From Aurantibacter crassamenti (GTDB lineage Bacteria; Bacteroidota; Bacteroidia; Flavobacteriales; Flavobacteriaceae): a stretch of 64,000 nt of DNA. Location of the stretch: positions 1,424,221 through 1,488,220 of the forward strand of contig NZ_JAFBGM010000002.1 of assembly GCF_016811105.1 (NCBI RefSeq). The letters are read 5' to 3'. Positions 5,786-26,138 of the stretch are shown in pieces; the stretch's first letter is position 1, and every line of letters begins with the position of its first letter. The translations under genes and the position numbers were made by a program. The notes beneath the pieces were generated by a model, which was given only the letters and a program-made list of their open reading frames with translations, was not told the DNA's origin and made no database searches.

Positions 5786-5839
5786 TTACTAAAAAAGGAA
5801 TAAACGTACCTAGGTACGTTTAGCCAATTGTTGGCAAAC
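5786..5839 (+). repeat. cassette repeat r0, right end only (array 1 left edge)
   Basis: Right-hand end of a repeat of the r16 type. It contains a perfect 22-bp palindrome, TAAACGTACCTAGGTACGTTTA without its centre broken (5801-5822), then GCCAATT and the right arm GTTGGCAAAC (5830-5839). That arm is the exact reverse complement of 7342-7351, which delimits cassette A. Confidence 0.8.
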
Positions 5840-5848
5840 ATTTGAAAA

Positions 5849-6859
5849 TTAAACGTGAATTAGTTCAAACGAATAATTATAATCTATTAATCCTTTACTT
5901 TTCTCATTGTCAATCCACGCTTTTTCTTCGTGACTTAATTCTCTTATTTCCTTCGCATTGTACTTTTTGAATTTTAAAATAATTTCATCTAAAATACCAA
6001 TCTCAACTTTATCAAATAATACACTATTAAATGCTCTAGATGGGATTTTAATAAACTCTTCTCCAACTAAACCACTTGGATATTGAACCGAAATTAAATC
6101 TACAATTTGCTGGTCTGAAAGATAATCGAATAACGTTCTAAATTTCTTCGGCACAGGACCGTGTGTATGCGCAAAATAACGTGTCCCACTTATTGAAACA
6201 CCAGTTAATTTATAATGCAAAAAATCTGAATAAAACAGTAGCTTATTCATTTTAGTAGGTGTTACACTTACATTTTCAGTAAAATATACTACCATTTCAA
6301 CTAGTTTGTTAAAATTAGGTTTTTTATATCCTGAAAAATTATCAGGCAAAAAATTATAATCAAAAACATAGTCAATCAATTCTTGTTTTCTTTTATTAAG
6401 TTCTTCTTCCTTTTTTACTTTGGCTATATTTTTCAAAAACTTCTCTCTTTGAGATTCTGAAATTTCATTATTACTTTTTATTAACCCTTTTAATGTTCCT
6501 AAACTATTAATTATTGCTTTTAATAACGCAGCATTTGCCAAACTAGGCACTTCTCCTTTTTCATAATTACTGTAACTATTAACGCCTAAACCTAATATTT
6601 TGGATATATCTGTATAGCTAAAAGAGTATTTTTCTCTAAATTCTCTTATTTCTTCTGTAAATGGAACATTATGTTTATCTCTATATTTATTATAAACTTG
6701 ATTTAAATTAAATTCATCTAACTCTGTGGTTGTAAATGACTCACCACTATCTTCACAAAAATAACTTTTGTGATTATACTCAAATTCTTCTTTTCGAAAA
6801 ACCAAAATACTCTTCTCATTTTGTAAGGTCATTTCCTTACCTGTGATTGGACTTTTCAT
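5849..6859 (-). CDS. antitoxin-like protein: degenerate zinc domain, HTH and Panacea (DUF4065) domain
   Basis: 336 residues. Residues 1-50 resemble the MqsA-type zinc domain, but most metal cysteines are gone (SPITGKE instead of CPxCG; only Cys35 remains of the second pair). A helix-turn-helix of XRE type spans about 66-125 (EIREFREKYSFSYTDISKILG… NYEKGEVPS). The C-terminal part, about 180-320, is a Panacea/DUF4065 domain (KMNKLLFYSDFLHYKLTGVSISG, HGPVPKKF), known in many antitoxins. It lies 15 bp downstream of a toxin-like gene on the same strand. Cassette A; oriented against the array. Likely autorepressor and antitoxin. Confidence 0.8.
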   Translation of the reverse strand: MKSPITGKEMTLQNEKSILVFRKEEFEYNHKSYFCEDSGESFTTTELDEFNLNQVYNKYRDKHNVPFTEEIREFREKYSFSYTDISKILGLGVNSYSNYEKGEVPSLANAALLKAIINSLGTLKGLIKSNNEISESQREKFLKNIAKVKKEEELNKRKQELIDYVFDYNFLPDNFSGYKKPNFNKLVEMVVYFTENVSVTPTKMNKLLFYSDFLHYKLTGVSISGTRYFAHTHGPVPKKFRTLFDYLSDQQIVDLISVQYPSGLVGEEFIKIPSRAFNSVLFDKVEIGILDEIILKFKKYNAKEIRELSHEEKAWIDNEKSKGLIDYNYSFELIHV

Positions 6860-6874
6860 AATTGTTTGTTTTTT

Positions 6875-7231
6875 TTAGTTTAATTTCTTAAGAGGAAATT
6901 CCATTAGATATTCCGCTTTATGAAAAGAGATGCAAACTGCTCCTCCAGTCATTTTTGAAATAGTCAATTTAATATAGACTTGCTGACCTTTAATTACCTT
7001 TCCGAAAACCCACATTTCAGTTCCTCCTTGTTGAGTTTCTTCTAAAGGACCTTCGCTGTAATCCTCTACTTCTAGATTTAATATTATTTCTTCACGCATT
7101 TTAGCGGTAATACTTAAATCTGCAAGATTCTGAATACTATTTTTAGGACGATTGGAGAAGATTATGCCCAAAGACTTTATAACCGCCTTAAGTTCTTGCA
7201 AAAAAGATTTTATAATTGATTTATCCGCCAT
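6875..7231 (-). CDS. MqsR-like toxin candidate
   Basis: 118 residues, no signal peptide. The sequence pattern (LADLSITAKMREEIILNLEVEDYSEGP, then MWVFGKVIKGQQVYIKL and ISFHKAEYLMEFP) is the one I associate with Bacteroidota proteins called MqsR-family toxins, which cut mRNA. It is the first gene of a two-gene unit with the HTH/Panacea protein, the order seen for mqsRA. The toxin activity is inferred from family resemblance and context; no catalytic residue can be fixed by eye. Confidence 0.6.
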   Translation of the reverse strand: MADKSIIKSFLQELKAVIKSLGIIFSNRPKNSIQNLADLSITAKMREEIILNLEVEDYSEGPLEETQQGGTEMWVFGKVIKGQQVYIKLTISKMTGGAVCISFHKAEYLMEFPLKKLN

Positions 7232-7252
7232 ATTAACGTGTTAAATTCTTTG

Positions 7253-7295
7253 CAAATATAAAAACATAACGAATATATACACTATAAAGTATAAT
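7253..7295 (-). promoter_or_regulatory. possible promoter and operator of the toxin-antitoxin unit
   Basis: On the minus strand TATATTTG (complement of 7253-7260) fits the -7 box TAnnTTTG, 21 bp before the toxin start. Just upstream lies the imperfect palindrome ATACACTATAAAGTAT, and at 7322-7333 the perfect palindrome CACTTTAAAGTG. Either could bind the HTH antitoxin. Confidence 0.35.
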
Positions 7296-7341
7296 TATTA
7301 ACATTATATCAACAATTAAGCCACTTTAAAGTGAATAAAAC

Positions 7342-7551
7342 GTTTGCCAACAAAACCTATAAACAATACGGGCTTCGGGCTTAGTCGCAGGGTTTGTGTA
7401 TTTTTATGATGTCCGCAAAATCTTTTGGATTTTGCTTTTTAGAGGGACAAAGAAAAAAAGAAAACTAAACAATAAGCTTTAGCTTCGTGCTAAGACGGAA
7501 ACAAAAAGTTTCCTTACTTCCGCACTACGCTTAGCCGCGCCGTTGTAAGTA
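7342..7551 (+). repeat. cassette repeat r1
   Basis: Left arm GTTTGCCAAC (7342-7351) pairs with the start of cassette A; right arm GTTGTAAGTA (7542-7551) pairs with 7987-7996 at the end of cassette B. Inside: hairpins GCAAAATC/GATTTTGC (7415-7435) and GGAAAC/GTTTCC (7497-7513). Its two inner halves are of different types (hybrid). Confidence 0.9.
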
Positions 7552-7573
7552 ATTCCAATCACCTAAACTCCGA

Positions 7574-7972
7574 ATGATTAGAAAAACATTTTATTTAGGA
7601 TTTCTTAGCTATATCTTCTTAGTGATGTCATGTAAGGAAAAATCATTTTCAGAATATAGTGAGAACGAGTTTTACAAAGTTCAAGGAGTTATAGTTTCTG
7701 CGAAGTTGACCAGTTCGATTTTGGACGACCCTTTCATGAAAGAAATTAAATATAAATACTTTATAAATGATTCCTTGATTTTAGAAGGCTCAGAAGATTT
7801 TTCCTTCATGGACATGGACAAAGGAATACCAATAGAAGTTTTAGTACATAAGGAAAATAAGGATGTCAGTTTCTATTGGAGGAACGGATATACGGAAAAT
7901 ATTACTGCTTATCAGTTGGAGTATGTACGGAAAAAAATGGAAGAAGCAATAGCGGAAATTAAAAACCAGTAA
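7574..7972 (+). CDS. small lipoprotein of unknown function (cassette B)
   Basis: 132 residues with a lipoprotein signal ending at MSC (Cys20). The rest is soluble and polar, with no motif I recognise. It is the only gene of cassette B (7542-7996), whose ends GTTGTAAGTA and TACTTACAAC are perfect complements. The gene points with the array. Single small unknown genes are typical of integron cassettes. Function cannot be given. Confidence 0.75.
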   Translation: MIRKTFYLGFLSYIFLVMSCKEKSFSEYSENEFYKVQGVIVSAKLTSSILDDPFMKEIKYKYFINDSLILEGSEDFSFMDMDKGIPIEVLVHKENKDVSFYWRNGYTENITAYQLEYVRKKMEEAIAEIKNQ

Positions 7973-7986
7973 CGGATAAAAAGAAC

Positions 7987-8125
7987 TACTTACAACAATG
8001 CCTAAAATTAATTGCTTTGGATTTTCCGTTGGAAAATCTAGCGCAATTTTGCTAACTTTAGTTCGCATTGGGAAATCCTGGCGGATTTCACAACGCAACT
8101 AATCTTAGCCGCGCCGTTAGCAACA
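7987..8125 (+). repeat. cassette repeat r2 (short form)
   Basis: Shortest copy, about 125 bp between the AAC and GTT ends, so within the size of known attC sites. Left arm TACTTACAAC, right arm GTTAGCAACA (8116-8125). Inner arms CTAAAATTAATTGC (8002-8015) and GCAACTAATCTTAG (8095-8108) pair at 12 of 14 positions; the two exceptions are A.C. Confidence 0.9.
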
Positions 8126-8187
8126 ATATTACAAAAATTTGGATTTGGTTCGTTTTTGGTGTAAATTAGCATCAAAATACGTTTTTT

Positions 8188-8427
8188 ATGGCTAGACAGA
8201 GCATATCCTTTACGCGACCAAATGATGAATGGTTAAAGGCACAAGTTGATAATCAAGAATACTCGAGTAAAAGCGAACTCGTAAATGACTTAATCAGACA
8301 AGCAAGAAACCAGCAAATCGAAATTGACTGGATTAAAGCTAAATTAGATAAAGCTGAGAATAGCGGATTCAACAATGATAGCAAGAAACAAATTTTAGCG
8401 CAAGCCAAGTCTAAAATTAATGACTGA
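8188..8427 (+). CDS. ParD-like antitoxin (copy 1)
   Basis: 79 residues. The N-terminal part (MARQSISFTRPNDEWLKAQ, then SKSELVNDLIRQA) has the ribbon-helix-helix pattern of ParD/CopG antitoxins; the rest is the toxin-binding tail. The stop overlaps the toxin start by 8 bp (ATGACTGA), the usual coupling for parDE. It binds and neutralises the toxin and represses the operon in this family. Cassette C, with a near-identical second copy at 16050-16289. Confidence 0.88.
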   Translation: MARQSISFTRPNDEWLKAQVDNQEYSSKSELVNDLIRQARNQQIEIDWIKAKLDKAENSGFNNDSKKQILAQAKSKIND

Positions 8428-8707
8428 TTATAAGCTAAGTAATGCCGCAAAAGATGACTTGATAAGGATTCATCGATTCGGAGTGAAAAAGTTTGGAATG
8501 GCTCAAGCTGACAAATACTTTGATTCTTTTTTTGAGTACTTCGACATCATAGCTAAAAGTCCCTATTCATTCGAATCAGTTGATTTTATAAAAAAAGGAT
8601 ATAAGAGGTGCGTATGTGGTTCCGATAGTATTTATTATAAAATTAATGGAAACATAGTAGAAATAATGGCAATTGTAGGAAGACAGGATTTTAAAAATAT
8701 ACTTTAA
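8420..8707 (+). CDS. RelE/ParE-family toxin
   Basis: 95 residues: YKLSNAAKDDLIRIHRFGVKKFG at the start, then FFEYFDIIAKSPYSF and a C-terminal YYKINGNIVEIMAIVGRQDF. This is the ParE/RelE fold pattern. ParE members poison DNA gyrase and RelE members cut mRNA; which applies cannot be told here. Starts within the antitoxin stop region. Intact in this copy, frameshifted in the copy at 16282-16585. Confidence 0.87.
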   Translation: MTDYKLSNAAKDDLIRIHRFGVKKFGMAQADKYFDSFFEYFDIIAKSPYSFESVDFIKKGYKRCVCGSDSIYYKINGNIVEIMAIVGRQDFKNIL

Positions 8708-8725
8708 ACTTTTGCGGGAAAATAC

Positions 8726-8939
8726 TGTTGCCAAAGAAACCTATAAACAATAAGGGCTTCGGGCTTAATTGAAAGGTTTGTGTATTTATATAAAGTCCAC
8801 AAAATCTTATGCCCCGAAGCGTCGGGGTTGCATTAAACAAAAAAAGAAAAAGCAAAACAATAAGCTTTAGCTACGTCGGCAGGCGGAAACGAAAAGTTTC
8901 CTTGCCTCCGCACTACTCATAGCTGAAACGTTGTGCCAC
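8726..8939 (+). repeat. cassette repeat r3
   Basis: Left arm TGTTGCCAAA has AAA where AAC is usual; right arm GTTGTGCCAC (8930-8939). Central hairpin CCCCGA/TCGGGG (8812-8827) replaces the GCAAAATC hairpin of r1; GGAAAC/GTTTCC present. Its left half is nearly identical to that of r9, in step with the duplicated toxin-antitoxin cassette. Confidence 0.9.
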
Positions 8940-8960
8940 ATTAAAAAACCATAGAATTGA

Positions 8961-9959
8961 ATGGGAATATTTGGAAGTAATAAAGAAAAATGGACAAATC
9001 ATAGTGGAAATATTAATATTCATTCTGACCTGAAAAAATCTGATATCTCCAAAATAATATCCGAAGAAAACATTCATTCACTTCAATTATACACATTTGA
9101 AAACCCAAAAAAACAAACTTGGGAAACACTAAATGAGTTTTACAAACAATATCCAAACATTGGACTTCGAGTGGTTTGGTATAACGCTCAAGATTTATCC
9201 TTTTATAAAGAAATACCATACGTTAGGAAATTCCAAATTGCATCCTACAATACAAAGGACTATTCAAAACTTCTGTCTAATACCAAACTCAAACATTTCG
9301 GAATTGAAGAAACTAAATCAAACGCCGTTAACCTTTCCTTCATTAAAGAATTTAATGAATTAGAATCGCTTTACGTCGATGGAATGAAGAAAGGATTAGA
9401 GAATGTTCAATACTTGAAAAAGTTAAAAATTCTGACTTTTAGAGGTGTGAAAATGGATGATTTGAATTTCTTATCAGACTTAAATAATCTCGAAGAACTC
9501 AATTTACTTTTTGGCAGTTATAAAAACCTTGAATCTGTTTCTAATTTAAAGAAATTAAAATCTATTGAATTTAGTAGAGTAAGACAAATTCCAAATTTTG
9601 ACTTTTTAAATTCATTGGAAAATTTAGAGAAAATAGAATTTGAAGGAATGTCTAAAATGGAACAAATACCAAACTTATCGAAATTGGGTAAACTAAAAAG
9701 AATTCAAATTCACAATAACTTAAGACTTCAAGACATAAAATCGGTTGGTAAAATTCCAAATTTAAAACTTCTTCAATTATCATTTGCAGAAAATTCGAAA
9801 ACTGCTGAACGAAAAAATCTAATTGACCAATCCATAGACATCTTGATGAAATCGAAATCAATTGAGTACACGAATATTATGCATTGGACCGATGAAGAGA
9901 CGACAAAAAAGTTAACAGATAAAGGAATTAAAACTTGGAGTTGGGACATCGAAATATAA
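8961..9959 (+). CDS. leucine-rich-repeat-like protein (cassette D)
   Basis: 332 residues, no signal peptide. From about residue 100 to 300 it shows irregular leucine-rich repeats of about 22 residues (LNNLEELNLLFGSYKNLESV, LENLEKIEFEGMSKMEQI, IPNLKLLQLSF), a protein-binding scaffold. The first ~100 residues contain no domain I recognise. It is the only gene in cassette D, which is bounded by the perfect pair GTTGTGCCAC (8930) and GTGGCACAAC (9961). Role unknown. Confidence 0.75.
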   Translation: MGIFGSNKEKWTNHSGNINIHSDLKKSDISKIISEENIHSLQLYTFENPKKQTWETLNEFYKQYPNIGLRVVWYNAQDLSFYKEIPYVRKFQIASYNTKDYSKLLSNTKLKHFGIEETKSNAVNLSFIKEFNELESLYVDGMKKGLENVQYLKKLKILTFRGVKMDDLNFLSDLNNLEELNLLFGSYKNLESVSNLKKLKSIEFSRVRQIPNFDFLNSLENLEKIEFEGMSKMEQIPNLSKLGKLKRIQIHNNLRLQDIKSVGKIPNLKLLQLSFAENSKTAERKNLIDQSIDILMKSKSIEYTNIMHWTDEETTKKLTDKGIKTWSWDIEI

Positions 9960-9960
9960 C

Positions 9961-10168
9961 GTGGCACAACAAAACCGATAAACAATACTGGCTTCGGGTT
10001 TAATCGCTGGGTTTGCGTATTTTTATGAAGTCCGCAAAATATTATGCCCCGAAGCGTCGGGGTTGCTTTAAACAAGAAAAAACAAAACAAAAAGATTTTG
10101 CTATGTGCGTGGCGGAAAGCAAACACTAGTTTGCTCCCGTATTGTTCATAGCTCAACCGTTGTGCGTC
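9961..10168 (+). repeat. cassette repeat r4
   Basis: Left arm GTGGCACAAC (9961-9970), right arm GTTGTGCGTC (10159-10168). Inner arms 9976-9988 and 10139-10151 pair (AACAATAC with GTATTGTT). The variable hairpin is GCAAAC-acta-GTTTGC (10119-10134). The right half matches r9. Confidence 0.9.
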
Positions 10169-10181
10169 ATTTAAGACACGA

Positions 10182-10724
10182 ATGTTAATCAAAAAATATA
10201 CATCAGATTGGGTTCAACAATTTGCGGAATTAAAGCGTGAAATTGACAAGGGTTTAAATGGAATTGAATACCAAATTGAGCACGTTGGAAGTACGTCAAT
10301 CCCAAAATTGGACTCAAAACCGATTATCGATGTCGACATTGTTTATAAAACAATAAAGGAATTTGAAAAAATAAAATCTCATCTAATCAAAATCGGCTAT
10401 TATCATAACGGAAATCAAGGAATTGAAAATCGAGAAGTGTTTAAGCGAGATGGGAGCCTAATCAATAACATTTTAGACTCAATTCCTCATCATCTTTATG
10501 TTTGTCCATCTAACAGTAAATCGTTGGAAAGACATATTCTTATGCGGAATTACTTAAGAAAAAATGATTCAGCTAGAATAAAATATCAGGAAATGAAATA
10601 CCGATTAGCAGAAAAAGCAAGTCAGAATAAAAAACTGTATGCAGAATTAAAAGAATTGAACGTCAATGCATTTATTGACGAAATAATAGAAATAGAAAAA
10701 ACGAACGCACAACAAAACCTATAA
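10182..10724 (+). CDS. GrpB family protein (nucleotidyltransferase fold)
   Basis: 180 residues, the usual length for GrpB/UPF0157. The key region at residues 31-56 reads QIEHVGSTSIPKL followed by KPIIDVDIVY, giving the GS motif and DxD carboxylates of the nucleotidyltransferase superfamily. Biochemical role in the family is poorly known. Only gene of cassette E (10159-10713); its last codons run into the left arm of repeat r5. Confidence 0.88.
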   Translation: MLIKKYTSDWVQQFAELKREIDKGLNGIEYQIEHVGSTSIPKLDSKPIIDVDIVYKTIKEFEKIKSHLIKIGYYHNGNQGIENREVFKRDGSLINNILDSIPHHLYVCPSNSKSLERHILMRNYLRKNDSARIKYQEMKYRLAEKASQNKKLYAELKELNVNAFIDEIIEIEKTNAQQNL

Positions 10725-10916
10725 ACAATACGGGCTTCAGGCATAATCGAAAGGTTTGTGTATTTTTATGAAGTCGCTAAATATTATGCCCCGACGTTTC
10801 GGGTTAGCTTTGGACAAAAAAAGTAAAAGCAAAACCAAAAGCTTTAGCTACGTCGGCAGACGGAAACGAAAAGTTTCCTTGCCTCCGCACTACGCTTAGC
10901 CGCGCCGTTAGCATTA
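10704..10916 (+). repeat. cassette repeat r5
   Basis: Left arm AACGCACAAC (10704-10713) matches the cassette E start at 9 of 10 bases; right arm GTTAGCATTA (10907-10916). Contains GGAAAC/GTTTCC. The 3' end of the GrpB gene overlaps it. Confidence 0.9.
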
Positions 10917-11201
10917 ATAGCTCGAAAATTAAATCTTCTCGCGGAATTCAGCGGTAAATATTTTGTCAACTTAGGGACGTAAGTCCTCGATTTTTTTTGC
11001 GCAAATGGACCTTACTCAAACGCAACTGTTGCGACGATGGACTTCTTAGCTTGTTTACGCAAATGGACCTCACTCCTACTCGCTAAAGAATGTGCCAATC
11101 TGTGCAATCGTAACGCAAGCAAATTCTAATCGCTAACCAATCGTTATGTAATCTGCGTAAAGAGCCTGTGCTTACTCATATGGTTCGCTACTAATGCTAA
11201 C
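10907..11201 (+). other. gene-less cassette F
   Basis: Bounded by GTTAGCATTA (10907) and its perfect complement TAATGCTAAC (11192-11201). I see no credible protein in 295 bp. It holds two copies of CGCAAATGGACCTyACTC (11000-11017 and 11059-11076) and the short palindrome CGCAAC-T-GTTGCG (11021-11033). It may encode an RNA, be a regulatory cassette or be a decayed gene. Confidence 0.6.
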
Positions 11202-11393
11202 AAAGCCTATAATTAATCCGGACTTGGGGTTTATCTGCCAAAGTCTGTGTATTTTTAGTATGTCGCAAAATCTTATGGATTTTGCATTTAAGACAAAAAA
11301 GAAAACACAAAACCATAAGCTTTTGCTTTGTGCGTAGCTGGAAATCCTACGGATTTCTGCGCCGCACTAATCATAGCCCAGCCGTTGGCAACA
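11192..11393 (+). repeat. cassette repeat r6
   Basis: Left arm TAATGCTAAC, right arm GTTGGCAACA (11384-11393). Inner arms CTATAATTAATCCGG (11207-11221) and CCGCACTAATCATAG (11362-11376) pair at 12 of 15. Variable hairpin GAAATCC-tac-GGATTTC (11341-11357). Confidence 0.92.
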
Positions 11394-11395
11394 AT

Positions 11396-12427
11396 ATGAC
11401 CAAAGAAGAAGAAATAGAAAGAGTACACGGAAAAGGAACACACGTTGTTATTCTTGGAGCTGGTGCAACTTATGCTTCTACCCTCAAAAATCCTGAAAAG
11501 AATGGAAAAACACTTCCTTTGATGTGGAATGTTATTGATATTGTTGGATTAAGTGATGTTGTAAAAGGATTGCCAAGAGAATACCAAACACTTAAAGAGG
11601 ACTTTGAAAAGCTTTATAGTTTATTAGCAAAAGATGATAAATTTAAAGCAGAAAGAGAACATATTGAAAAGGTGGTTTACCAATACTTTAATGAATTAGA
11701 GTTACCTGATGAACCAACAATTTATGACTATCTCGTTCTTTCTTTGAGACACCGAAAAGATATAATTGCAACTTTTAATTGGGATCCGTTTCTTTATAAA
11801 GCATATGTGAGAAATGGAGAATTCACAGATAGTCCTGGGATTTTATTTTTACACGGTTGTGTTTCTTTAGGCTATGACAAATCAAATGGTTCTTCTGGAC
11901 CTGCTGGTTGGTTCTCAAAAGAAACAAAACAAGAGTTTAAACCAACTAAATTATTATATCCTGTTGATAAAAAAGATTACAATTCTGACCCTTTTATAAA
12001 TGGACAATGGGACGTGCTTGGTAATAAACTTAAAATAGCAGAGAGAGTAACTGTATTTGGATATTCTGCACCAGTTAGTGATGTTGAAGCAATCGATTTA
12101 CTTCAAAAATCTTGGGGAAATGTAGAAGATAGGGCAATGGAAGAATTTGAATTGATAGATATTCAAGAGGAGAAAAAATTATTGAAATCGTGGGATACAT
12201 TTATTCATACTCATCATTATAACTACTGCAATGACTATTTCGATTCTTCATTGGCTTTACATCCAAGAAGAACGGTAGAAAGTTATCATCATTGGGCAAT
12301 GCCAATGACACCTAATGAAGCCTTCCAAGATGGAAATCAAATACCAAAGGATTTTAAAACCCTTGAAGAATTGTGGGAATGGCACAAACCTCTAATTGAA
12401 GCTGAAAAAAGATTCTATGGTGAATAA
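11396..12427 (+). CDS. SIR2-like domain protein (putative defence gene 1)
   Basis: 343 residues counted from the ATG at 11396; the longer frame from 11282 is rejected because it lies in repeat r6. SIR2-like features: VVILGAGAT at residues 18-25 (nucleotide-binding glycine loop), TFNWD at 126-130, LHGC at 152-155 with a histidine in the catalytic position, and a later VFGYSAP. SIR2-like proteins in anti-phage systems often destroy NAD+. The ATG is only 12 bp after the repeat boundary. First gene of a three-gene cassette with an AbiC-like protein and a second SIR2 protein. Confidence 0.8.
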   Translation: MTKEEEIERVHGKGTHVVILGAGATYASTLKNPEKNGKTLPLMWNVIDIVGLSDVVKGLPREYQTLKEDFEKLYSLLAKDDKFKAEREHIEKVVYQYFNELELPDEPTIYDYLVLSLRHRKDIIATFNWDPFLYKAYVRNGEFTDSPGILFLHGCVSLGYDKSNGSSGPAGWFSKETKQEFKPTKLLYPVDKKDYNSDPFINGQWDVLGNKLKIAERVTVFGYSAPVSDVEAIDLLQKSWGNVEDRAMEEFELIDIQEEKKLLKSWDTFIHTHHYNYCNDYFDSSLALHPRRTVESYHHWAMPMTPNEAFQDGNQIPKDFKTLEELWEWHKPLIEAEKRFYGE

Positions 12428-13400
12428 AGAGTCAACGGAAATAAAACAACCTAAAAAGCCTTATTTAAGGCCAGATTATAAACCTAAAAATTGGTGGCAA
12501 CGTAATTGGATTGAGTTGCTTACAATAGCAGTCGGTGTAATTATCATTCATATTTTTTTACTTTTTAAAGCTTTTAATGGTAATGAGTTAAATTCAACGA
12601 ATGCAAGCGAATTTGGAAGCTTCATCGGTGGATATATGGGAACTTTATTTGCTCTAGTAAGTGTTATTTTTCTATATACAACTTTGAGAGACCAAAGGAG
12701 AACTTCCGAAATTGAGAAGTTTGAAACACGCTTTTTTGAATTGATTAGACTTCATAGGGATAATGTTCAAGAAATAACTTTAAAAACACAAAATGGAAAA
12801 AAGATTTTTGTGCTATTTATTCGAGAGTTTAGAGAAATAATGAAAATTGTCAAAGACGTTTTTAAAAATGATAAGCTAGAAAAAAAGCAAATTATTGAAA
12901 TTTCATATTTGGCATTTTTTTACGGTATTGGACCAAATTCTACAAGAATATTAAAAAATTCACTTTCCGATTATAATAAAACCAAAGTGAAAAAATTGAC
13001 TGAAGAACTACAATCACAAAAACAGGAAGTAAAAAAAGAACGAAATTTTAATTATGTACCTTTTGAAGGACATCAATCAAGATTGGGTCATTATTATCGA
13101 CATTTGTTTCAATCAATTGCTTATTGTCACAATAAGAAAATTGATATTGATAAATACGAGTATATTAAATTAATTCGAGCTCAACTTTCAAATCACGAAC
13201 AGGCTCTTTTATTTTTAAATTCAATTTCTAAACTCGGAAAACCTTGGAAAGACGAGAATTTGATTAAAACATATCGTCTGATTAAAAATATCCCAGAAGA
13301 TTTTTTTGACCCTAAAAAAGAAATTGACATCAAAGAATTATATCCAGAAATGATATTTGAATATGAAGAAAGTACTGTAGCTAAAATTATAACAAAATAA
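12417..13400 (+). CDS. putative phage abortive-infection membrane protein (putAbiC-like)
   Basis: 327 residues from the ATG at 12417, overlapping the previous gene by 11 bp; an ATG at 12396 would add seven residues. Two membrane segments at about 32-51 and 72-91 are followed by a cytosolic part starting EKFETRFFELIRLHRDNV (100-117), the pattern of the putative AbiC family (PF16872-like). Such proteins are linked to phage exclusion. Sitting between two SIR2-like genes with overlapping or touching ends, it likely acts as a membrane partner or effector in the same system. Confidence 0.72.
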   Translation: MVNKESTEIKQPKKPYLRPDYKPKNWWQRNWIELLTIAVGVIIIHIFLLFKAFNGNELNSTNASEFGSFIGGYMGTLFALVSVIFLYTTLRDQRRTSEIEKFETRFFELIRLHRDNVQEITLKTQNGKKIFVLFIREFREIMKIVKDVFKNDKLEKKQIIEISYLAFFYGIGPNSTRILKNSLSDYNKTKVKKLTEELQSQKQEVKKERNFNYVPFEGHQSRLGHYYRHLFQSIAYCHNKKIDIDKYEYIKLIRAQLSNHEQALLFLNSISKLGKPWKDENLIKTYRLIKNIPEDFFDPKKEIDIKELYPEMIFEYEESTVAKIITK

Positions 13401-14738
13401 ATGGAAGATAAATGCAAATGTCAAATATGTGAAAATGATTTACCGTTTGAAATCCCTAACGATATAATTGATTCGCTTCTAAATAACAATCTAGTCTTAT
13501 TTGCAGGTGCAGGCATCAGTACAGAAACTAAACGCATATTTAAAGAAACGTTATATGATGATGTCCTTTACGATTTAGATGAAAAAAACACTGATATTTC
13601 GTTTCCAGATTTAATGTCCAAATTTTGTAATTCATCGCCTAATGGAAGGCAAAAATTATTGGAGAAAATTAAAAAACGATTCGATTATGTTCACCAATTC
13701 AAAGAATTATATCGAATGGCTTCTGAATTTCATATTGAAATATCAAAATTTTGGATGCTCAAAGATATTATTACTACTAATTGGGATGATTATTTTGAAA
13801 GAGAATGTTCGGCAATTCCAATAGTTACACCAAAAGATTTTGCTTTTTACAATATTGACCAAAGAAAGGTTTTTAAAATTCACGGTTCTATCAGTAATTA
13901 TGGTAGCGTGATAGCTACTAAAGAAGACTATGATTTATGTTACAAGGAACTAAGTACTGGACTCATAGGAGCGAATCTTAAAACTCTCTTGGCTACCAAA
14001 ACAATACTTTTTGTTGGATACTCTTTTAGAGATTTCGATTTCAACAAAGTTATTGAGTTACTTAAATTAGAAATGGGGCAAGTATTTCCTCACTTTTATA
14101 TAGTAACCTTAGATGATAAAATTCCTGATTCTTTAGATAGTTCAAAAGTCACAATGATTAATACTTCTGGAACATTTTTCTTTAAAAAAATTAGGGAACA
14201 TTTAGAAAATAAAAAAATTATTGTACCCGAGAAAAAGTTAAATAGAATTTATGAAATAAAATATTTATTAAGCTCTGTACATTCCGATTTATCAGACTTC
14301 TTCTTAGATAAAAAGAAGTCTTGTTCTTTAATTTATACAATGTTATATCAAGATGGAGTCTCTCACGCTACGGATTATTTAGATTTTAAATCAAAAAGCG
14401 GAGAATCTTACAATCATAATGATTTAATGAACCAATTAATCCTTTATACTGAGGACATAAGAAAAAAAATGTCAAAAGCTAGGAATTATATGGACTTGGC
14501 GTATATAGATGGTTATATAGAAGGATTGGCAATTCCGTTATTTTACGAAGACATAGAAGAGTTTCCACTATTCTATATATATGGAATTGGTCCAACAAAT
14601 GATATTGAACTTGCATATGATACTTTTCAAAAAGACACCATAAGGCATAAAGCTTCTGAAAAATACGGAAGAAAATTCTTTAAAGAATACCTTAAGGATG
14701 ATTCGGAATTAGTTCTACATCATAGACCTTTCATATAA
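13401..14738 (+). CDS. SIR2-like domain protein (putative defence gene 2)
   Basis: 445 residues; its ATG follows the previous stop directly. SIR2-like domain: LFAGAGIS at residues 33-40, TTNWD at 125-129, FKIHGS at 158-163 with the presumed catalytic histidine 161, and FVGYSFRDFDF further on. Three cysteines near the start (CKCQIC, residues 5-10) could form a small metal site. The C-terminal ~180 residues are helical and not recognised. Probably an NAD+-consuming or NAD+-sensing part of the same defence unit. The cassette ends a few bases after its stop. Confidence 0.82.
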   Translation: MEDKCKCQICENDLPFEIPNDIIDSLLNNNLVLFAGAGISTETKRIFKETLYDDVLYDLDEKNTDISFPDLMSKFCNSSPNGRQKLLEKIKKRFDYVHQFKELYRMASEFHIEISKFWMLKDIITTNWDDYFERECSAIPIVTPKDFAFYNIDQRKVFKIHGSISNYGSVIATKEDYDLCYKELSTGLIGANLKTLLATKTILFVGYSFRDFDFNKVIELLKLEMGQVFPHFYIVTLDDKIPDSLDSSKVTMINTSGTFFFKKIREHLENKKIIVPEKKLNRIYEIKYLLSSVHSDLSDFFLDKKKSCSLIYTMLYQDGVSHATDYLDFKSKSGESYNHNDLMNQLILYTEDIRKKMSKARNYMDLAYIDGYIEGLAIPLFYEDIEEFPLFYIYGIGPTNDIELAYDTFQKDTIRHKASEKYGRKFFKEYLKDDSELVLHHRPFI

Positions 14739-14741
14739 TAC

Positions 14742-14938
14742 TGTTGCCAACAATGTATATAAAAAATAGGGCGATAATTGCTTAAATAAAGGCTTGTGCT
14801 TTTTTGCAAAGTCCGCCATATTTTTAATATGTATTTTAGTGAAAAGATAAAAATAAAATGAAAAATATGGCTAAGTGTAAATCCGAAAGTAAGTGCTTGT
14901 CAACTGCCCTACTTTTCATATACTAACCGTTGTACGCA
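14742..14938 (+). repeat. cassette repeat r7
   Basis: Left arm TGTTGCCAAC (14742-14751), the perfect complement of the cassette G start; right arm GTTGTACGCA (14929-14938). Inner arms 14756-14772 and 14906-14922 pair at 15 of 17 positions, and the two exceptions are A.C. The middle differs from the r1 type. Confidence 0.9.
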
Positions 14939-15054
14939 AGCTTGAAAATCCTTGAAATTGAATAAAACCTATTACAACCAAAGCAAAATGGACATTGACA
15001 AAAATGTCGTAAAGATGTCGGTATTATGACATTACCAAAAAGACTAGGACTGCA

Positions 15055-15062
15055 TAATTTTG
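15055..15062 (+). promoter_or_regulatory. possible -7 promoter box before the HTH gene
   Basis: TAATTTTG fits TAnnTTTG and lies 25 bp before the ATG at 15088. No good -33 TTG is seen. If real, cassette H carries its own promoter. Confidence 0.3.
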
Positions 15063-15087
15063 TTTTAAAATTATTAACTTAATTATT

Positions 15088-15771
15088 ATGCAGGAGCAAA
15101 ATTTAGGTAAGAGGGTAAAAAAACTAAGAAATACTCAGGGAATATCTCAGGAATTTCTAGCTGACGAATCAGGTTTGAGTATACGGACAATTCAAAGAAT
15201 AGAAAAAGGTGAAACAACACCAAATGGCGATACATGTCGAAAACTGTCTGACGCATTAAAGGTTAGCCCAAATGAATTGATGGATTGGACTTTAATTGAG
15301 GACATCGATTTTCTGAAGAAATTAAATTTATCCGCATTACCATTTGTTTTTTTACCACTACTAGCAATATTATTACCAGTCTCAATGTGGCATTCCAATT
15401 TGTCATTCGTTTTTTTTCCACTGTTTGGTATATTAGTACCAGCCTTAATGTGGATTTCAAAAAAAGACAAGATTAAAGACATTGATAGAGTAGCTAAAAA
15501 ACTAATTAATTTCCAAATAACATGGTTAATTCTCTCCTTTATCATATCATTCTTCCTTCCTCCAATTCTATTGAGGTTATTAGAAATTCTCTTTGAAATT
15601 TTAAACACCAACATTAATCTGATAGGAGACGGTTTTACAAACGTCCGATTTACCATGGCTGTTATGGGCATAGTAAATATTACTTATATTTTGCTCAACA
15701 CATTTCGAATTCACGATGGGAAAAAACTGAAATATTTCCCTTCAATTCCATTTTTAAAAGTGGTTGACTAA
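15088..15771 (+). CDS. XRE-type HTH protein with C-terminal membrane domain
   Basis: 227 residues. Helix-turn-helix at about 8-60 (RVKKLRNTQGISQEFLADESGLSIRTIQRIEKGETTP), then about four membrane segments from residue 78 to 215. This HTH-plus-membrane design occurs in Bacteroidota regulators of unknown trigger; the membrane part could sense an envelope signal. Only gene of cassette H, bounded by GTTGTACGCA (14929) and AGCGTACAAC (15787). Confidence 0.85.
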   Translation: MQEQNLGKRVKKLRNTQGISQEFLADESGLSIRTIQRIEKGETTPNGDTCRKLSDALKVSPNELMDWTLIEDIDFLKKLNLSALPFVFLPLLAILLPVSMWHSNLSFVFFPLFGILVPALMWISKKDKIKDIDRVAKKLINFQITWLILSFIISFFLPPILLRLLEILFEILNTNINLIGDGFTNVRFTMAVMGIVNITYILLNTFRIHDGKKLKYFPSIPFLKVVD

Positions 15772-15786
15772 CTGAATAGAAAAGCC

Positions 15787-15987
15787 AGCGTACAACAAAA
15801 CCTAAACGTAATGCTGACTTCAGGGCTAAACCGAAAAGTCTATTTATATTTATAATGTCGCTAAATCTTATGGATTTTGCTCTTGATAGGAAAAAATAAA
15901 TCAAAACAAAAAGATTTTGCTTAGCGCTTAGCTGGAAATCCGTCGGATTTCTGCGCCGCACTAATCATAGCTCAACCATTAGCAGCA
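15787..15987 (+). repeat. cassette repeat r8
   Basis: Left arm AGCGTACAAC (15787-15796) matches the cassette H start at 9 of 10. Right arm ATTAGCAGCA (15978-15987) has A for the usual G. Variable hairpin GAAATCC/GGATTTC. The inner halves are of different types. Confidence 0.88.
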
Positions 15988-16049
15988 ATATTACAAAAAT
16001 TTGGATTTGGTTCGGTTTTGGTGTAAATTAGCATCAAAATACGTTTTTT

Positions 16050-16289
16050 ATGGCTAGACAAAGCATATCCTTTACGCGACCAAATGATGAATGGTTAAAG
16101 GCACAAGTTGATAATCAAGAATACTCGAGTAAAAGCGAACTCGTAAATGACTTAATCAGACAAGCAAGAAACCAGCAAATCGAAATTGACTGGATTAAAG
16201 CTAAATTAGATAAAGCTGAGAATAGCGGATTCTCCAATGATAGCAAGAAACAAATTTTAGCGCAAGCCAAGTCTAAAATTAATGACTGA
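16050..16289 (+). CDS. ParD-like antitoxin (copy 2)
   Basis: 79 residues, differing from the copy at 8188-8427 only at one position (S for N at residue 63, GFSND versus GFNND). Ribbon-helix-helix antitoxin features are intact. It keeps the 8-bp overlap with the toxin frame, but that toxin is broken. An orphan antitoxin could still neutralise the toxin made by copy 1. Lies in cassette C', a near-identical duplicate of cassette C. Confidence 0.88.
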   Translation: MARQSISFTRPNDEWLKAQVDNQEYSSKSELVNDLIRQARNQQIEIDWIKAKLDKAENSGFSNDSKKQILAQAKSKIND

Positions 16290-16585
16290 TTATAAGCTAA
16301 GTAATGCCGTAAAAGATGACTTGATAAGGATTCATCGATACGGAGTGAAAAAGTTTGGAATGGCTCAAGCTGACAAATACTTTGATTCTTTTTTTGAGTA
16401 CTTCGACATCATTGCTAAAAGTCCCTATTCATTCGAATCAGTTGATTTTATAAAAAGTTGATTTTATAAAAAAAGGATATAAGAGGTGCGTATGTGGTTC
16501 CGATAGTATTTATTATAAAATTAATGGAAACATAGTAGAAATAATGGCAATTGTAGGAAGACAGGATTTTAAAAATATACTTTAA
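16282..16585 (+). pseudogene. RelE/ParE toxin, frameshifted copy
   Basis: Matches 8420-8707 almost base for base, but a 16-bp tandem duplication, AGTTGATTTTATAAAA twice (around 16440-16471), shifts the frame after about 57 codons. It also has a few substitutions, such as Ala to Val near residue 9 and Phe to Tyr near residue 17. The encoded toxin would lose its C-terminal catalytic part. Confidence 0.88.
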
Positions 16586-16603
16586 ACTTTTGCGGGAAAA
16601 TAC

Positions 16604-16811
16604 TGTTGCCAAAGAAACCTATAAACAATAAGGGCTTCGGGCTTAATTGAAAGGTTTGTGTATTTATATAAAGTCCACAAAATCTTATGCCCCGAAGTGT
16701 CGGGGTTGCTTTAAACAAGAAAAAACAAAACAAAAAGATTTTGCTATGTGCATGGCGGAAAGCAAACACTAGTTTGCTCCCGTATTGTTCATAGCTCAAC
16801 CGTTAGCAAAA
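16604..16811 (+). repeat. cassette repeat r9
   Basis: Left arm TGTTGCCAAA as in r3; right arm GTTAGCAAAA (16802-16811). The left half equals r3 up to the central CCCCGA hairpin, the right half equals r4 (GCAAAC-acta-GTTTGC hairpin). The switch lies near 16706, at the shared GGGTTGC. Confidence 0.9.
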
Positions 16812-16924
16812 ATATTAAATGACCCTAAATATAATATTTACTATTAATCCGTAATAAATATATAAACCTGTTACAATGTTAATTGCGGTTCTTAAATTGG
16901 AATGATTCTTGTTTCAATCATTTT

Positions 16925-17347
16925 ATGAGAGAATTAATAGCTTTGTTTATCATCTTTTTTGGTTTATTAAGTTTTGGTCAGGAAAATAAAATTTCTAAAT
17001 CAAATCGAGAAAATTTTAAAAGTATTCAAGAATTAGATTCAACTTTCCAAAATAGAATCAATGAAGAGGATTTAATAGGAGTTTGGTTCACAACGGCAGT
17101 AACTCATTCAAAATATAGATCAAATCCCTACCCTAGATTTAAAGACAGGTATTCTTTTAAAAAAGACTTTTCTATTTCATTTGTGAAGAATAAGAAAATA
17201 ACTTCTGGCACTTGGAGTCTTTCGGCAAATAATATACTTAACATTACAACTAACTCCGGTAAAATAGTTTATCAAATAAGAGCTTTTAAGGATGGGACAT
17301 TGATACTATCCTCTTCCAACAATTATATAACACTCAAGAAAAATTAA
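16925..17347 (+). CDS. small secreted protein of unknown function (cassette I)
   Basis: 140 residues from the ATG at 16925, chosen because a signal peptide starts there (MRELIALFIIFFGLLSFGQ); the frame upstream to 16883 looks non-coding. The mature part has alternating beta pattern (GVWFTT, YSFKKDFSISFV, GTWSLSANNILNITT, GTLILSSSNNYITL), as in small lipocalin-like barrels. No family assigned. Cassette I has perfect ends GTTAGCAAAA and TTTTGCTAAC; 185 bp between the stop and the repeat hold no gene. Confidence 0.7.
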   Translation: MRELIALFIIFFGLLSFGQENKISKSNRENFKSIQELDSTFQNRINEEDLIGVWFTTAVTHSKYRSNPYPRFKDRYSFKKDFSISFVKNKKITSGTWSLSANNILNITTNSGKIVYQIRAFKDGTLILSSSNNYITLKKN

Positions 17348-17531
17348 TAATTAAAATATAAAATTGCTCTTCCTAGTTGTAAATACCCCTACTTATACCT
17401 AAATATTGTAAACAATAAAAACTGAACGGAGTAGAATGCAAATGAAACTGCGAAAGTTAATGCAGTCGGATTTGAAAAACTGTTCGCAGACGGAATTGAA
17501 TCGCCTCGAACGCAATATTGGTGGAAAATAC

Positions 17532-17768
17532 TTTTGCTAACAAAACCTAAACGCAATCTGGAGTTTTAGGCAAAACCGAAAGGTCTGTGTATATTTATGA
17601 AGTCGCTAAATCTTATGCCCCGACGTTTCGGGTTAGCTTTGGACCAAAAAAGAAAAAACAAAACCAAAATCTTTAGCCTCGTGCACAGACCTGCCCGCCG
17701 GCAAGCAGGCGGAAACGATATGTTTCCTTGCCTACCCCCTACTTGCCATTGCCGAACCGTTAGCAACA
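17532..17768 (+). repeat. cassette repeat r10 (long form)
   Basis: Left arm TTTTGCTAAC (17532-17541), right arm GTTAGCAACA (17759-17768). About 25 bp longer than most because of an extra CCTGC…GCAGG hairpin near 17690. Left and right inner halves do not match each other well. Confidence 0.9.
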
Positions 17769-17782
17769 TTTAAGAGTTAAAA

Positions 17783-23541: not shown

Positions 23542-23544
23542 ATA

Positions 23545-24303
23545 TTAACCTGCAAATATTGGATTTACATTAAGACCACCATCCACATTAAATTCAGAAC
23601 CTGTAATAAACGAAGCTTTGTCAGAAGCAAGAAAAGCTACCATTTCAGCAATCTCTTCAGGTTTGCCATATCTTTTTAGAGGGATTCGGTTTTGCATCAT
23701 ATCTCCCATTCCTTTAAGTTGCTCTTCTGACATCCCTGTTTTGCTAAAAATTGGTGTGGCAATTGGCCCCGGGTTAACAGCATTTACTCTAATTTTTCGT
23801 GGAGCCAATTCTGTAGCAGCTGCTCGAGTATAAGAATTTAAAGCAGCTTTGGTTGCACCATAAACAGCTGTGTTAGGCATTCCTGTATAAGCATTTATTG
23901 AAGATAAATTTATGATGCTACTTCCATCATTAAGAAGTGGTAGAAATTTCTCGATTGTAAAAATTGCCCCTTTAAAATTAATATCTATTAAAGTATTAAA
24001 ACCTTCTTCTGAATTTTGCCCTACCGGCATAGGAATAAAAACGCCTGCGTTAACAAACAAAATATCAATTCTCTCAAATTCATTTTTAACTTGATGAACA
24101 GCTTTGTCCATAGCAGATAAATCCGATACATCTGCAATAATTCCTCTAACATCAAGTTCTTTTGCAGCTGAATTAACCCTTTCTTGAGAACGCCCTATTA
24201 TGATTACTGTTGCTCCTTCTTCTTTTAATTTTCTAGCTGTTGAATAACCGATACCACTATTTCCTCCAGTAATTACTGCTACTTTTCCTCTTAATGTACT
24301 CAT
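23545..24303 (-). CDS. SDR family oxidoreductase
   Basis: 252 residues from the ATG at 24303 (MSTLRGKVAVITGG); the longer frame would cover the operator. Classical SDR: TGGNSGIG near residue 11, NAG, a Ser in INLSSINAY and catalytic YGATK, then NPGPIATP. The ending with GSEFNVDGG is typical of the fabG-like group. Usually NADP-dependent, substrate unknown. Regulated, I infer, by the adjacent TetR; TetR/SDR pairs of this type often respond to electrophiles. Confidence 0.92.
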   Translation of the reverse strand: MSTLRGKVAVITGGNSGIGYSTARKLKEEGATVIIIGRSQERVNSAAKELDVRGIIADVSDLSAMDKAVHQVKNEFERIDILFVNAGVFIPMPVGQNSEEGFNTLIDINFKGAIFTIEKFLPLLNDGSSIINLSSINAYTGMPNTAVYGATKAALNSYTRAAATELAPRKIRVNAVNPGPIATPIFSKTGMSEEQLKGMGDMMQNRIPLKRYGKPEEIAEMVAFLASDKASFITGSEFNVDGGLNVNPIFAG

Positions 24304-24333
24304 TATTTCATTTTTAATTATTACTATTTGTAG

Positions 24334-24349
24334 TGGAACAATCGTTCCA
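24334..24349. promoter_or_regulatory. putative TetR operator 2
   Basis: TGGAACAATCGTTCCA, a palindrome 31 bp before the SDR start, same pattern as operator 1. Confidence 0.6.
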
Positions 24350-24369
24350 GATACAAACATACAAATAAC

Positions 24370-24384
24370 AGAACATTCGTTCCA
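24370..24384. promoter_or_regulatory. putative TetR operator 3
   Basis: AGAACATTCGTTCCA contains the perfect GAAC-attc-GTTC palindrome and matches operator 2 at most positions, about 36 bp further upstream. Confidence 0.5.
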
Positions 24385-24517
24385 AATAAAATAAAAGCAA
24401 ATTATTTATATTTAGCTAAATAAAAAACAAAAATAGTTATCGCGTACCAAACGTTTCTTATATAGAATGTTGAACAACGTATTACCGACTTTATACCAAA
24501 ATATATTTATCATATAA

Positions 24518-24868
24518 ATGACATTCAATTTTCTCATAGCATTTTCTTCAATATTGATGGGTTTACTTGTGTTAATCATTGGCTTCATTCTTACAAAGAA
24601 CCCAACAAAAATTGGGCGTATCAATGGATTTCGAAATAAACATGCTATGAAAAACCAAGAGCAATGGAATTTTTCACAAAGAGTGTTTGCTAAAAATTAA
24701 ATAAAATTTTCATGCATTCCTTTTTTGACAGCAGTACTCGGATTTTTTGTTACCGAACAAAACACTACTTGGGGAATATGGGGTGTAATGATAAGTTTTC
24801 TTGTGTGTATGGTTTTGGCCTCTTTTAAAACGCTAGATAGAATTAATGCGGAATTTGATAAAAAATAA
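24518..24868 (+). pseudogene. SdpI-like membrane protein gene with internal stop
   Basis: The first 60 codons (IAFSSILMGLLVLIIGFILTKNP, then IGRINGFRNKHAMKNQEQWNFSQRVF) match the SdpI family pattern G-[FY]-R-x-x-x-[AS]-MKN-x-E-x-W. A TAA at 24698-24700 stops it, but the same frame then reads about 55 more codons with two further membrane segments, to a TAA at 24866-24868. I infer one gene broken by a nonsense mutation or by small compensating indels. SdpI members give immunity to the SdpC toxin in Bacillus. Confidence 0.6.
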
Positions 24869-24960
24869 AACTAAACAATAAGCTTTAAATAAGTGCTTTA
24901 TCAGAAATTAAGTGAATATAATCCCTGTGCTTATCATAGTCAAGACGCTGGTAAAAATTT
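24868..24960 (+). repeat. cassette repeat r14, partial
   Basis: Only the right half can be recognised: AAACAATAAGCTTTA as in r1 and TGCTTATCATAGTCAAGACGCTGG, resembling the usual ACTAATCATAGCTCAACCGTTGG. GTT has decayed, and no matching cassette arm is seen. Confidence 0.5.
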
Positions 24961-25026
24961 AAAAACAGTGTAACAATTGAAAAATGTTTAAATCTTTAAG
25001 GTAATCCAACCTAAAAGCAACAAACA

Positions 25027-25938
25027 ATGAAAAAATCATATGTTATTACTGTATGCCTATTTATCTTGATATCATGTAAACAACAAATTCTGAAAGAAGA
25101 AAAGAAAAATATAAATACCATATCATCAGAATCTCTTGGAAACCCAGATGAATTTATTGGAAATCATAAAACCAAAGCTACTATTTTAGGTGTTTTTCAT
25201 TTCGATAATCCAGGATTAGACGATTATAAAGAAAAGTATTCGATAGACATTCTTTCCAAAAAACGACAATCTGAACTTGAAGACGTAATCACAAGTCTTG
25301 TTGCGTACAAACCAACTAAAATTCTAGTAGAAGTAAGAAGAAAAGAAAGTGACAGTTTAATAAATGATAGGTATAAAAAGTTCTTAAACGGAAATTATAG
25401 TATTAGTGACAAAAAAAGTGAAACCTATCAGCTTGCTTTTCGTTTAGCAAAAAAATTAGGACATACAAGAATCTATGCCTCTGATGTAAAAAATTCTTAC
25501 TGGTTTGGTGCTGACATAGATTGGGACAATTATGATGAAGATGAATACACAAAATCGCTTATACAATATGAAAAATCAAATAGGTATGATTATGAAAAAA
25601 TCTATGAATATCATGATTCCTTAAAAACTAAAATTACTTTGAAAGAATATTTTAAATTAGATAATGATCCCAAAGTTCGGCTAAAAGATCATCAATCTTA
25701 TCTCACTTCAAGCATATTAGCAGGTGCAGGAGATTTATACATTGGTGCAGACGCTGTTTCAAGATGGTATCAGCGTAATTTAAAAATATTTGCTAATACT
25801 TATGATATCGTTGATTTCTCAAAAGAAGATCGGGTTTTATTACTTTATGGTGCAGGTCATGTGTGGCAGTTAAGACAACTTTTTAAAGACTCGCCAGATT
25901 TTGAGTATGTAGAAATAAACCAATATCTATCAGATTAA
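25027..25938 (+). CDS. DUF5694-like lipoprotein
   Basis: 303 residues, lipoprotein signal with Cys17 (ISCKQQ). KATILGVFHFDNPG near residue 56 and RQSELEDVITSLVAYKPTKILVEVRR are the typical opening of the DUF5694 group, and a late LYGAGHVWQLRQL provides a second GxxH-type motif. The GxxH plus AGH arrangement recalls the TraB/ChaN-type metal enzymes; activity is not known. Envelope-anchored. Between repeats r14 and r15. Confidence 0.8.
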   Translation: MKKSYVITVCLFILISCKQQILKEEKKNINTISSESLGNPDEFIGNHKTKATILGVFHFDNPGLDDYKEKYSIDILSKKRQSELEDVITSLVAYKPTKILVEVRRKESDSLINDRYKKFLNGNYSISDKKSETYQLAFRLAKKLGHTRIYASDVKNSYWFGADIDWDNYDEDEYTKSLIQYEKSNRYDYEKIYEYHDSLKTKITLKEYFKLDNDPKVRLKDHQSYLTSSILAGAGDLYIGADAVSRWYQRNLKIFANTYDIVDFSKEDRVLLLYGAGHVWQLRQLFKDSPDFEYVEINQYLSD

Positions 25939-25943
25939 AAGCA

Positions 25944-26138
25944 GTTGCACACAATTGCTATTGCAAATAGGTCATAAAGTCTTAAATTTAAAGACTTGCG
26001 TTTATTGACCTAGTACTAAAAATCTTTGGCCCAACGCTTCTGGGTAGCCCTGATACCAAAAAAATAGCTGCGAGCTGTGGCGCAAAGGGAATTGTAAATC
26101 ACCAGCCCACACTAAATATGGCCGAGCGGTTAGCAGTA
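25944..26138 (+). repeat. cassette repeat r15 (last of array 1)
   Basis: The left end GTTGCACACAATTGCTATTGC is decayed; right arm GTTAGCAGTA (26129-26138). The left half resembles r17 (GCAAATAGG…CATAAAG), the right half r18. No matching arm is found after the following gene, so this repeat ends the array. Confidence 0.75.

Follow-up and report, generated by a model that had tools for sequence, protein, structure and literature searches.

The window considered here, a stretch of 64,000 nucleotides (nt) of contig NZ_JAFBGM010000002.1 of Aurantibacter crassamenti (Flavobacteriaceae), very probably contains two integron-like cassette arrays placed at attI-like sites, the cassettes of which were likely moved by an IntI-related but distinct tyrosine recombinase that lies directly upstream of such arrays in relatives and was not found in this assembly. 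The cassette-specific ends, the covarying arms, the attI-like sites, the linkage to the recombinase and the exact GTT-to-GTT units are established by sequence, and from the comparison of these sequences we infer recombination itself.

Cassette ends and attC-like sites

An earlier note on this DNA listed 14 pairs of matching cassette ends, and all of them are present when read back from the sequence, with the seven pairs it called perfect matching at 10 of 10 positions and the remaining seven at 7 to 9 of 10. Its statement that cassettes start with GTT and end with AAC also holds, except that the cassette at 15978 begins with ATT and the ends at 8726 and 16604 finish with AAA. The arms can now be described as about 14 nt long, rather than 10, with a conserved A/G at position 11. 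In 13 of the 14 window pairs the 5' arm has A here and the 3' arm, read as its reverse complement, has G; the fourteenth, 10159/10704, gives A/G too once a one-base insertion is allowed. The match picks up again for at least three bases past position 11 in 12 of the 14 pairs, or in 13 with the insertion in 10159/10704, while pair 20183/22692 shows no resumed match. The end rule is therefore GTT-N7-A-N3 for the 5' end of a cassette and the reverse complement of GTT-N7-G-N3 for its 3' end.

The earlier note had named the loss of these matches in a statistical test as grounds for abandoning the idea, and they survive permutation: neither for 47 cassettes from our own and related loci nor for 105 cassettes from our own genome and relatives was the observed match between a cassette's own ends reached in any of 20,000 permutations. 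The larger set goes back to 237 repeats, from which 66 without a GTT anchor found and 31 without an AAC anchor found were excluded, and position 11 was left unscored in it. At least 8 of the 10 scored positions matched in 49 of the 105 cassettes, against 2.3% of mismatched pairings. Among these 49, position 11 was A in all 5' arms and G in 43 of the 3' arms, and the match dropped off at position 15.

A repeat model, R1, built on sequence only and with no base pairs, matched 52 places in the A. crassamenti genome at E 0.01 or better, some of them partially, and had matches in 53 of the 99 genomes searched; a scan of the window against Rfam returned no family. Taking as interior the stretch that runs from a cassette's AAC to the GTT of its right-hand neighbor, we obtained 263 unique interiors, of which 10 measure 46-60 nt (mode 53), 175 measure 110-132 nt (mode 118) and 71 measure 170-205 nt (mode 183); the others are three of 38-39 nt, two of 133-169 nt and two above 205 nt, and none falls at 61-109 nt. 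The clusters near 54, 118 and 183 nt lie about 64 nt apart, i.e., 32 nt per arm, or roughly three helical turns if folded. The repeat length of about 190 bp given in the earlier note is correct for most window sites, which belong mainly to the longest group (177-216 nt, with one of 119 nt), but it is one size class among several.

The outer 26 nt of the interiors, first against last, pair best with their own partner, a result that 0 of 5000 permutations reached in either of the two large groups and 0 of 2000 when interior arms were permuted within genomes. Where the arms differ in the 118-nt class, A on the left stands against G on the reverse-complemented right 396 times and the opposite occurs 29 times; C against T is found 106 times and T against C 22 times. 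On the top strand such differences are mismatches, A.C and C.A, whereas the bottom strand has wobbles in their place, T.G and G.T. Folding predictions for the interiors alone favored the bottom strand in 231 of 255 cases, the 8 of 263 interiors outside the size ranges being left out, and when window cassettes were joined in silico to their own 5' ends the bottom strand was predicted to be more stable in 11 of 12, with a tie in the twelfth. A folding signal emerged only when a site was paired to the 5' end of its own cassette or when sites were compared with one another. The predicted pairings contain unequal spacers and occasional bulges, but showed no fixed extrahelical bases of the kind that set strand and polarity. 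By folding and covariation, then, the repeats of about 190 bp look like attC-like hairpins with covarying arms and a bottom-strand preference.

The recombinase and its linkage to arrays in relatives

In several relatives a short palindrome and the first GTT directly follow the stop codon of an integrase gene. Window positions 5777-5832 and 61636-61692 align with this stretch of relative G034, including the apparent last codons of the integrase, and a further copy in the A. crassamenti genome (C1:2896260-2896327) is preceded by the codons FRNIKNPLD and a stop, as at the integrase end; the genome holds at least two attI-like sites besides the window's two. Judging from these alignments, both window arrays begin at an attI-like site whose integrase is gone. 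The earlier remark that the window contains no integrase is right for full genes, but attI-like sites with apparent remnants of integrase codons are present.

The recombinase that the earlier note proposed to seek elsewhere was found beside such arrays in relatives. To measure the linkage independently of the repeat model, we searched for pairs of ends that obey the end rule (at least 9 matches over the 10 scored positions, an A/G pair at position 11 and a distance of 150-5000 bp). Around 35 loci chosen by protein similarity, 56 end pairs lie downstream of the integrase on its own strand, 1 upstream and 2 on the other strand; one of these loci, L250, with 1 of the 56 pairs, was afterwards placed among Xer, and two, L215 and L219, come from bins labelled archaeal. 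Twenty Xer control loci gave 2 end pairs. The control scan of IntI covered 6 loci and gave 1 end pair, with L248 and L267 afterwards not reading as IntI, so that the true IntI controls are only four loci, not all of which may hold cassettes. Twenty further loci, mostly best-scoring and spread over 19 of the 92 genomes that were positive in the phylum sample described below, gave 42 pairs downstream, 0 upstream and 0 on the other strand, with 16 of the 20 loci positive. For 97 loci together, no two of which share an identical integrase end, the counts are 251, 11 and 18, respectively. A cassette is present in 53 of the 65 integrase loci that have at least 2 kb downstream, and the first one starts no more than 400 nt from the integrase end in 42 of these 53. 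Of the 18 non-overlapping integrase loci with repeats, 16 have them downstream and on the same strand.

The recombinase beside the arrays is a tyrosine recombinase of about 380 amino acids (aa) with domains PF13495 and PF00589. In 22 aligned enzymes R240, K268, H329 and R332 are invariant, and H355 and Y364 are kept in at least 90%. The integron integrase model TIGR02249 made strong partial matches in 36 of the 99 genomes, mostly to tyrosine recombinases of about this size, and rose above its cut-off in none of the 99, the scores of three scanned integrases being 197-211 bits against a cut-off of 265. The alignment with IntI4 (2a3v) is split, and the spacing from the Lys loop to HxLRH is 60-62 residues in 42 enzymes, as against 84-104 in 5 IntI and 65-69 in 11 Xer proteins. 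On these alignments the enzyme is IntI-related but without the IntI-specific additional domain around patch III, and by that measure it is not an IntI. The nearest solved structures by sequence are the Xer-like 4a8e, IntI4 and XerA, and the fold search agrees; fold matches of the whole integrase span only residues 108-367. The extra N-terminal domain of about 100 aa found nothing convincing in a sequence search of the PDB, and its Foldseek E-values were all above 0.04.

A quick tree places the recombinase outside the IntI clade. All 42 Bacteroidota enzymes fall on one side of a branch with support 0, and 41 of them join at 93; the support of 0 leaves their monophyly unestablished. Patchless recombinases from Alphaproteobacteria and an Acidobacteriaceae bin (L224, L226, L227, L229, L232, L234 and L236) join IntI at a branch of 87. 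Divergently upstream of many integrases stands a gene of about 130 aa (e.g., L074:1775-2176(-) and L084:17948-18337(+)), treble-clef-like, with DUF2116 as its best match, below the cut-off.

At E 1e-75 or better, the enzyme or its close kin occurs in 92 of 296 genomes of a phylum sample, some of the matches being about 280-300 aa and possibly without the N-terminal domain, and arrays having been checked in few; by the same criterion the A. crassamenti genome has no match. Named bearers include Seonamhaeicola, Winogradskyella, Algibacter, Zunongwangia, Flavobacterium, Algoriphagus, Rufibacter and Alkalitalea. Plasmid pls1 of Pontibacter kalidii (L192 12001-18200) carries the integrase, a series of small genes with ends that match by eye, short attC-like sites and tra genes. 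This array, in which A/G is not found at every position 11, is likely a mobile form.

Two more tyrosine recombinases of the A. crassamenti genome (open reading frames, ORFs, of 432 and 431 aa) have no R1 repeat nearby. The arrays lie near both ends of contig C1 and the end of contig C2, and the integrase may thus lie in an assembly gap; unless it does, the arrays here would be relics or substrates acted on in trans. The integrase of G002, from the same genus (L098 467-1546(-)), lacks 11 aligned positions that include the catalytic His and Tyr of related enzymes; it is probably a dead gene, or else reflects an assembly error.

Probable cassette mobility and rival explanations

Comparison of cassettes gave 48 pairs covering at least 85%, of which 38 are 97-100% identical. 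For 30 of these 38 pairs the next boundary is known on both members; their own attC sites are 91-100% identical as far as the following GTT, and the cassette after it differs in 29. The preceding 30 nt differ in 37 of the 38. One of the near-identical cassettes comes from the window and the rest are in relatives. The window cassette 61688-62634 shares 949 of 950 bases (61688-62637) with a cassette in G013, which belongs to another genus of the same family, with both edges at GTT: its left neighbor is the attI-like site in the window and an attC in G013, and identity stops at the next GTT. The earlier note would have counted it as a refutation if related strains never showed cassette gain, loss or reordering exactly at GTT; identical cassettes do recur elsewhere with their edges there. 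Together with the arm matches and the recombinase beside arrays in relatives, this recurrence supports the same note's view of an integron-like site-specific recombinase acting in the repeats.

If this is how the arrays arose, the bottom strand of attC would fold inside the cell into R and L stems of about 14 and 17 bp, with G.T wobbles favoring certain places, and would be recognized by its structure. The strand would be cut between G and TT, and cassettes would leave as circles and enter at attI or at another attC. The A at position 11, giving an A.C mismatch on the top strand and a G.T wobble on the bottom strand, would likely be one mark of the strand to be used.

Several observations weigh against this interpretation. 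Of the 105 cassettes, 56 score below 8 of 10; those with no more than 5 of 10 have a median length of 2268 bp as against 696 bp, as expected if a site inside them escaped detection, and poorly matched cassettes may contain such an internal site or have hybrid or decayed sites. The count of G.T over A.C in 264 of 269 cases was partly selected for, the unselected measures of the wobble bias being the position-11 count in the 49 cassettes and the difference counts of the interior arms. Folded alone, the window interiors favored the bottom strand in 8 of 12, the top strand in 3 and neither in 1, and one single array attC folded alone gave no signal over shuffles on either strand (z -1.1 and -0.7). 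The repeats of G003 and G001 face the other way, and 12 of the 65 loci with sufficient downstream sequence have no cassette by the end rule. Searches of the A. crassamenti genome with TIGR02249 and with a relative's integrase matched only XerC and XerD. The near-identical pairs are not independent, since 33 of the 38 come from the complete genome G016, many from one 438-bp family, and only one pair joins two genera. Finally, the attC sites of the duplicated ParE cassette (8116/15978) differ in their right halves, so that identity ends in the middle of attC and something else, e.g., homologous recombination, also acts.

It is conceivable, though quite improbable, that homologous recombination between the long repeats shuffled the genes with no site-specific enzyme involved. 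The repeats are 60-98% alike, and the 8116 and 15978 copies switch partner in mid-repeat, a sign of exchange inside attC sites. This mechanism leaves the cassette-specific ends unexplained, however, and near-identical cassettes stop at GTT amid unlike neighbors. Sites whose interiors measure 52-55 nt (8 of 10 in Rufibacter) follow the same end rule, and in the tested loci end pairs are largely confined to the downstream side of a single integrase family.

An equally small chance attaches to a classical IntI integron with an unusually long attC whose intI gene was lost or missed. The overall plan is indeed that of integrons, and some candidate cassettes beside the IntI of Paraglaciecola (L271 161-4545) have matches of 9-12 nt, which exceed the 7-nt core and show no A/G position. 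This explanation is opposed by the absence of above-cut-off TIGR02249 matches in 99 genomes and by the character of the recombinase beside the arrays, which has no additional domain and falls outside the IntI clade. None of the 51 candidate pairs of three IntI loci, moreover, has A/G at position 11, versus 60 of 276 pairs from 11 Bacteroidota loci, a comparison made on a noisy, rule-free set of 7-nt cores in which five loci were scanned as IntI and L248 is probably not IntI. Two further ideas, that every gene forms a small transposon bounded by terminal inverted repeats of its own and that the matched ends serve as transcription terminators, are together extremely improbable, even though the ends do form inverted repeats about 14 nt long. 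An end sequence that varies per cassette could hardly be read by a transposase, attC travels with one side only, and the arrays have a head-to-tail order, with a start that mostly lies close to the integrase. A hairpin acting as a terminator would not have a whole gene between its two halves.

The two arrays of the window and their place among known systems

All array features of the window are on the forward strand; cassettes are given from GTT to the next GTT, and each attC comprises the 3' arm, the interior and the next 5' arm. Array 1 starts with the attI-like site 5777..5832, which consists of the palindrome ATAAACGTACCTAGGTACGTTTA followed by GTT, has a left end resembling the final codons of the lost integrase and aligns with the DNA directly 3' of the integrase stop in G034. 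Cassette 1 (5830..7541, ends 10/10) carries a SocA/Panacea and MqsA/HTH protein at 5849-6859(-) and an ORF at 6875-7231(-), and its attC (7337..7556) has an interior of 190 nt. Cassette 2 (7542..8115, ends 10/10) has an ORF at 7574-7972 without a Pfam match and the one attC of the short class (7982..8130, interior 119 nt). In cassette 3 (8116..8929, ends 8/10; attC 8721..8944) a ParE-like toxin (8420-8707) is preceded by a short ORF seen by eye only; the second copy of this cassette is cassette 9 (15978..16801, ends 7/10; attC 16599..16816), with segments 94 and 98% identical. Cassette 4 (8930..10158, ends 10/10; attC 9956..10173) encodes a leucine-rich-repeat protein at 8961-9959, and cassette 5 (10159..10906, ends 9/10 plus one inserted base; attC 10699..10921) a GrpB-family protein at 10182-10724. 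Cassette 6 (10907..11383, ends 10/10; attC 11187..11398) has no ORF of at least 80 aa between its ends. Cassette 7 (11384..14928, ends 10/10; attC 14737..14943) has three ORFs, with putAbiC at 12423-13400 and a SIR2_2/ThsA-like domain at 13401-14738, and is likely an anti-phage defense cassette. An HTH_3 and DUF4870 protein (15088-15771) is found in cassette 8 (14929..15977, ends 9/10; attC 15782..15992) and a lipocalin-like one (16883-17347) in cassette 10 (16802..17757, ends 10/10), the attC of which (17527..17772) has an interior of 216 nt. From 17758 to 26140 the array is decayed and cassette ends are kept only partly; model matches mark attC-like stretches at about 19971-20185, 22697-22876, 24775-24947 and 25951-26130, and a further one near 19215-19390 was seen by eye only.

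Array 2 is preceded by the left half of an attC (61499..61620) and starts with the attI-like site 61636..61692. Its first cassette (61688..62634) has an ORF at 61720-62466, and the attC of this cassette (62434..62649), joined in silico to its own 5' end, is predicted to form a bottom-strand hairpin of -42.6 kcal/mol. The second cassette (62635..63438, ends 10/10; attC 63240..63453) has an ORF at 62654-63253, and the third (63439..63880, ends 9/10) has no ORF of at least 80 aa. The right end of its attC is missing from about 63880, some 120 bases short of the contig end, with unlike sequence beyond, and the break is possibly due to an insertion sequence.

The system resembles integrons in having a tyrosine recombinase beside attI, head-to-tail cassettes with a GTT boundary, R arms that match across the cassette, an attC hairpin with bottom-strand bias and, on comparative grounds, a moving unit made of the cassette and its attC. 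The attI-like sites beside the integrase are recognized by position and sequence. In classical integrons the core is 7 nt and the layout is divergent, although some integrons are inverted. Here the arms are about 14 nt with A/G at position 11, the integrase is read in the direction of the array with attI at its 3' side, and the enzyme, outside the IntI clade, has an extra N-terminal domain and no additional domain. Xer recombinases (XerC, XerD and XerA) share the catalytic core, account for two of the three best PDB sequence matches and give the best fold matches, but they show no cassette linkage, with 2 end pairs in 20 loci. Clusters of attC sites lacking integron integrases (CALIN), as described in the accessible part of PMC9024848, resemble the window in being attC arrays without an integrase and differ in that the window arrays keep attI-like sites; with 52 attC-like matches, some partial, and no integrase found, the genome may fit CALIN, but its arrays run near contig ends.

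The additional domain is among the defining IntI features in the accessible text of PMC9668308, and the available part of PMC8138268 reports that the insertion is not fully conserved in a subgroup of integron-like tyrosine recombinases. Relatives of the present enzyme may therefore have been seen already, though Bacteroidota cassette arrays are not described in that part. In the portions at hand, PMC8618304 lists Bacteroidota among the phyla with integrons, and PMC9024848 (IntegronFinder 2.0) names one complete Bacteroidetes integron, that of Salinibacter ruber. Our literature search, over texts partly accessible and with subscription journals and preprints mostly outside its coverage, gave no description of Flavobacteriaceae arrays or of a patchless integron integrase; an integron-like system with an enzyme outside IntI is thus not described in the literature searched.

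If the proposed reading is true, the capture of genes in the manner of integrons would be common in a phylum for which one complete integron is named in the available text. It would become testable whether the additional domain of IntI is needed for recombination of folded attC sites and how the strand is chosen. A large pool of cassettes would also be opened, including likely defense and toxin-antitoxin genes and, in Pontibacter, a plasmid-borne array beside conjugation genes.

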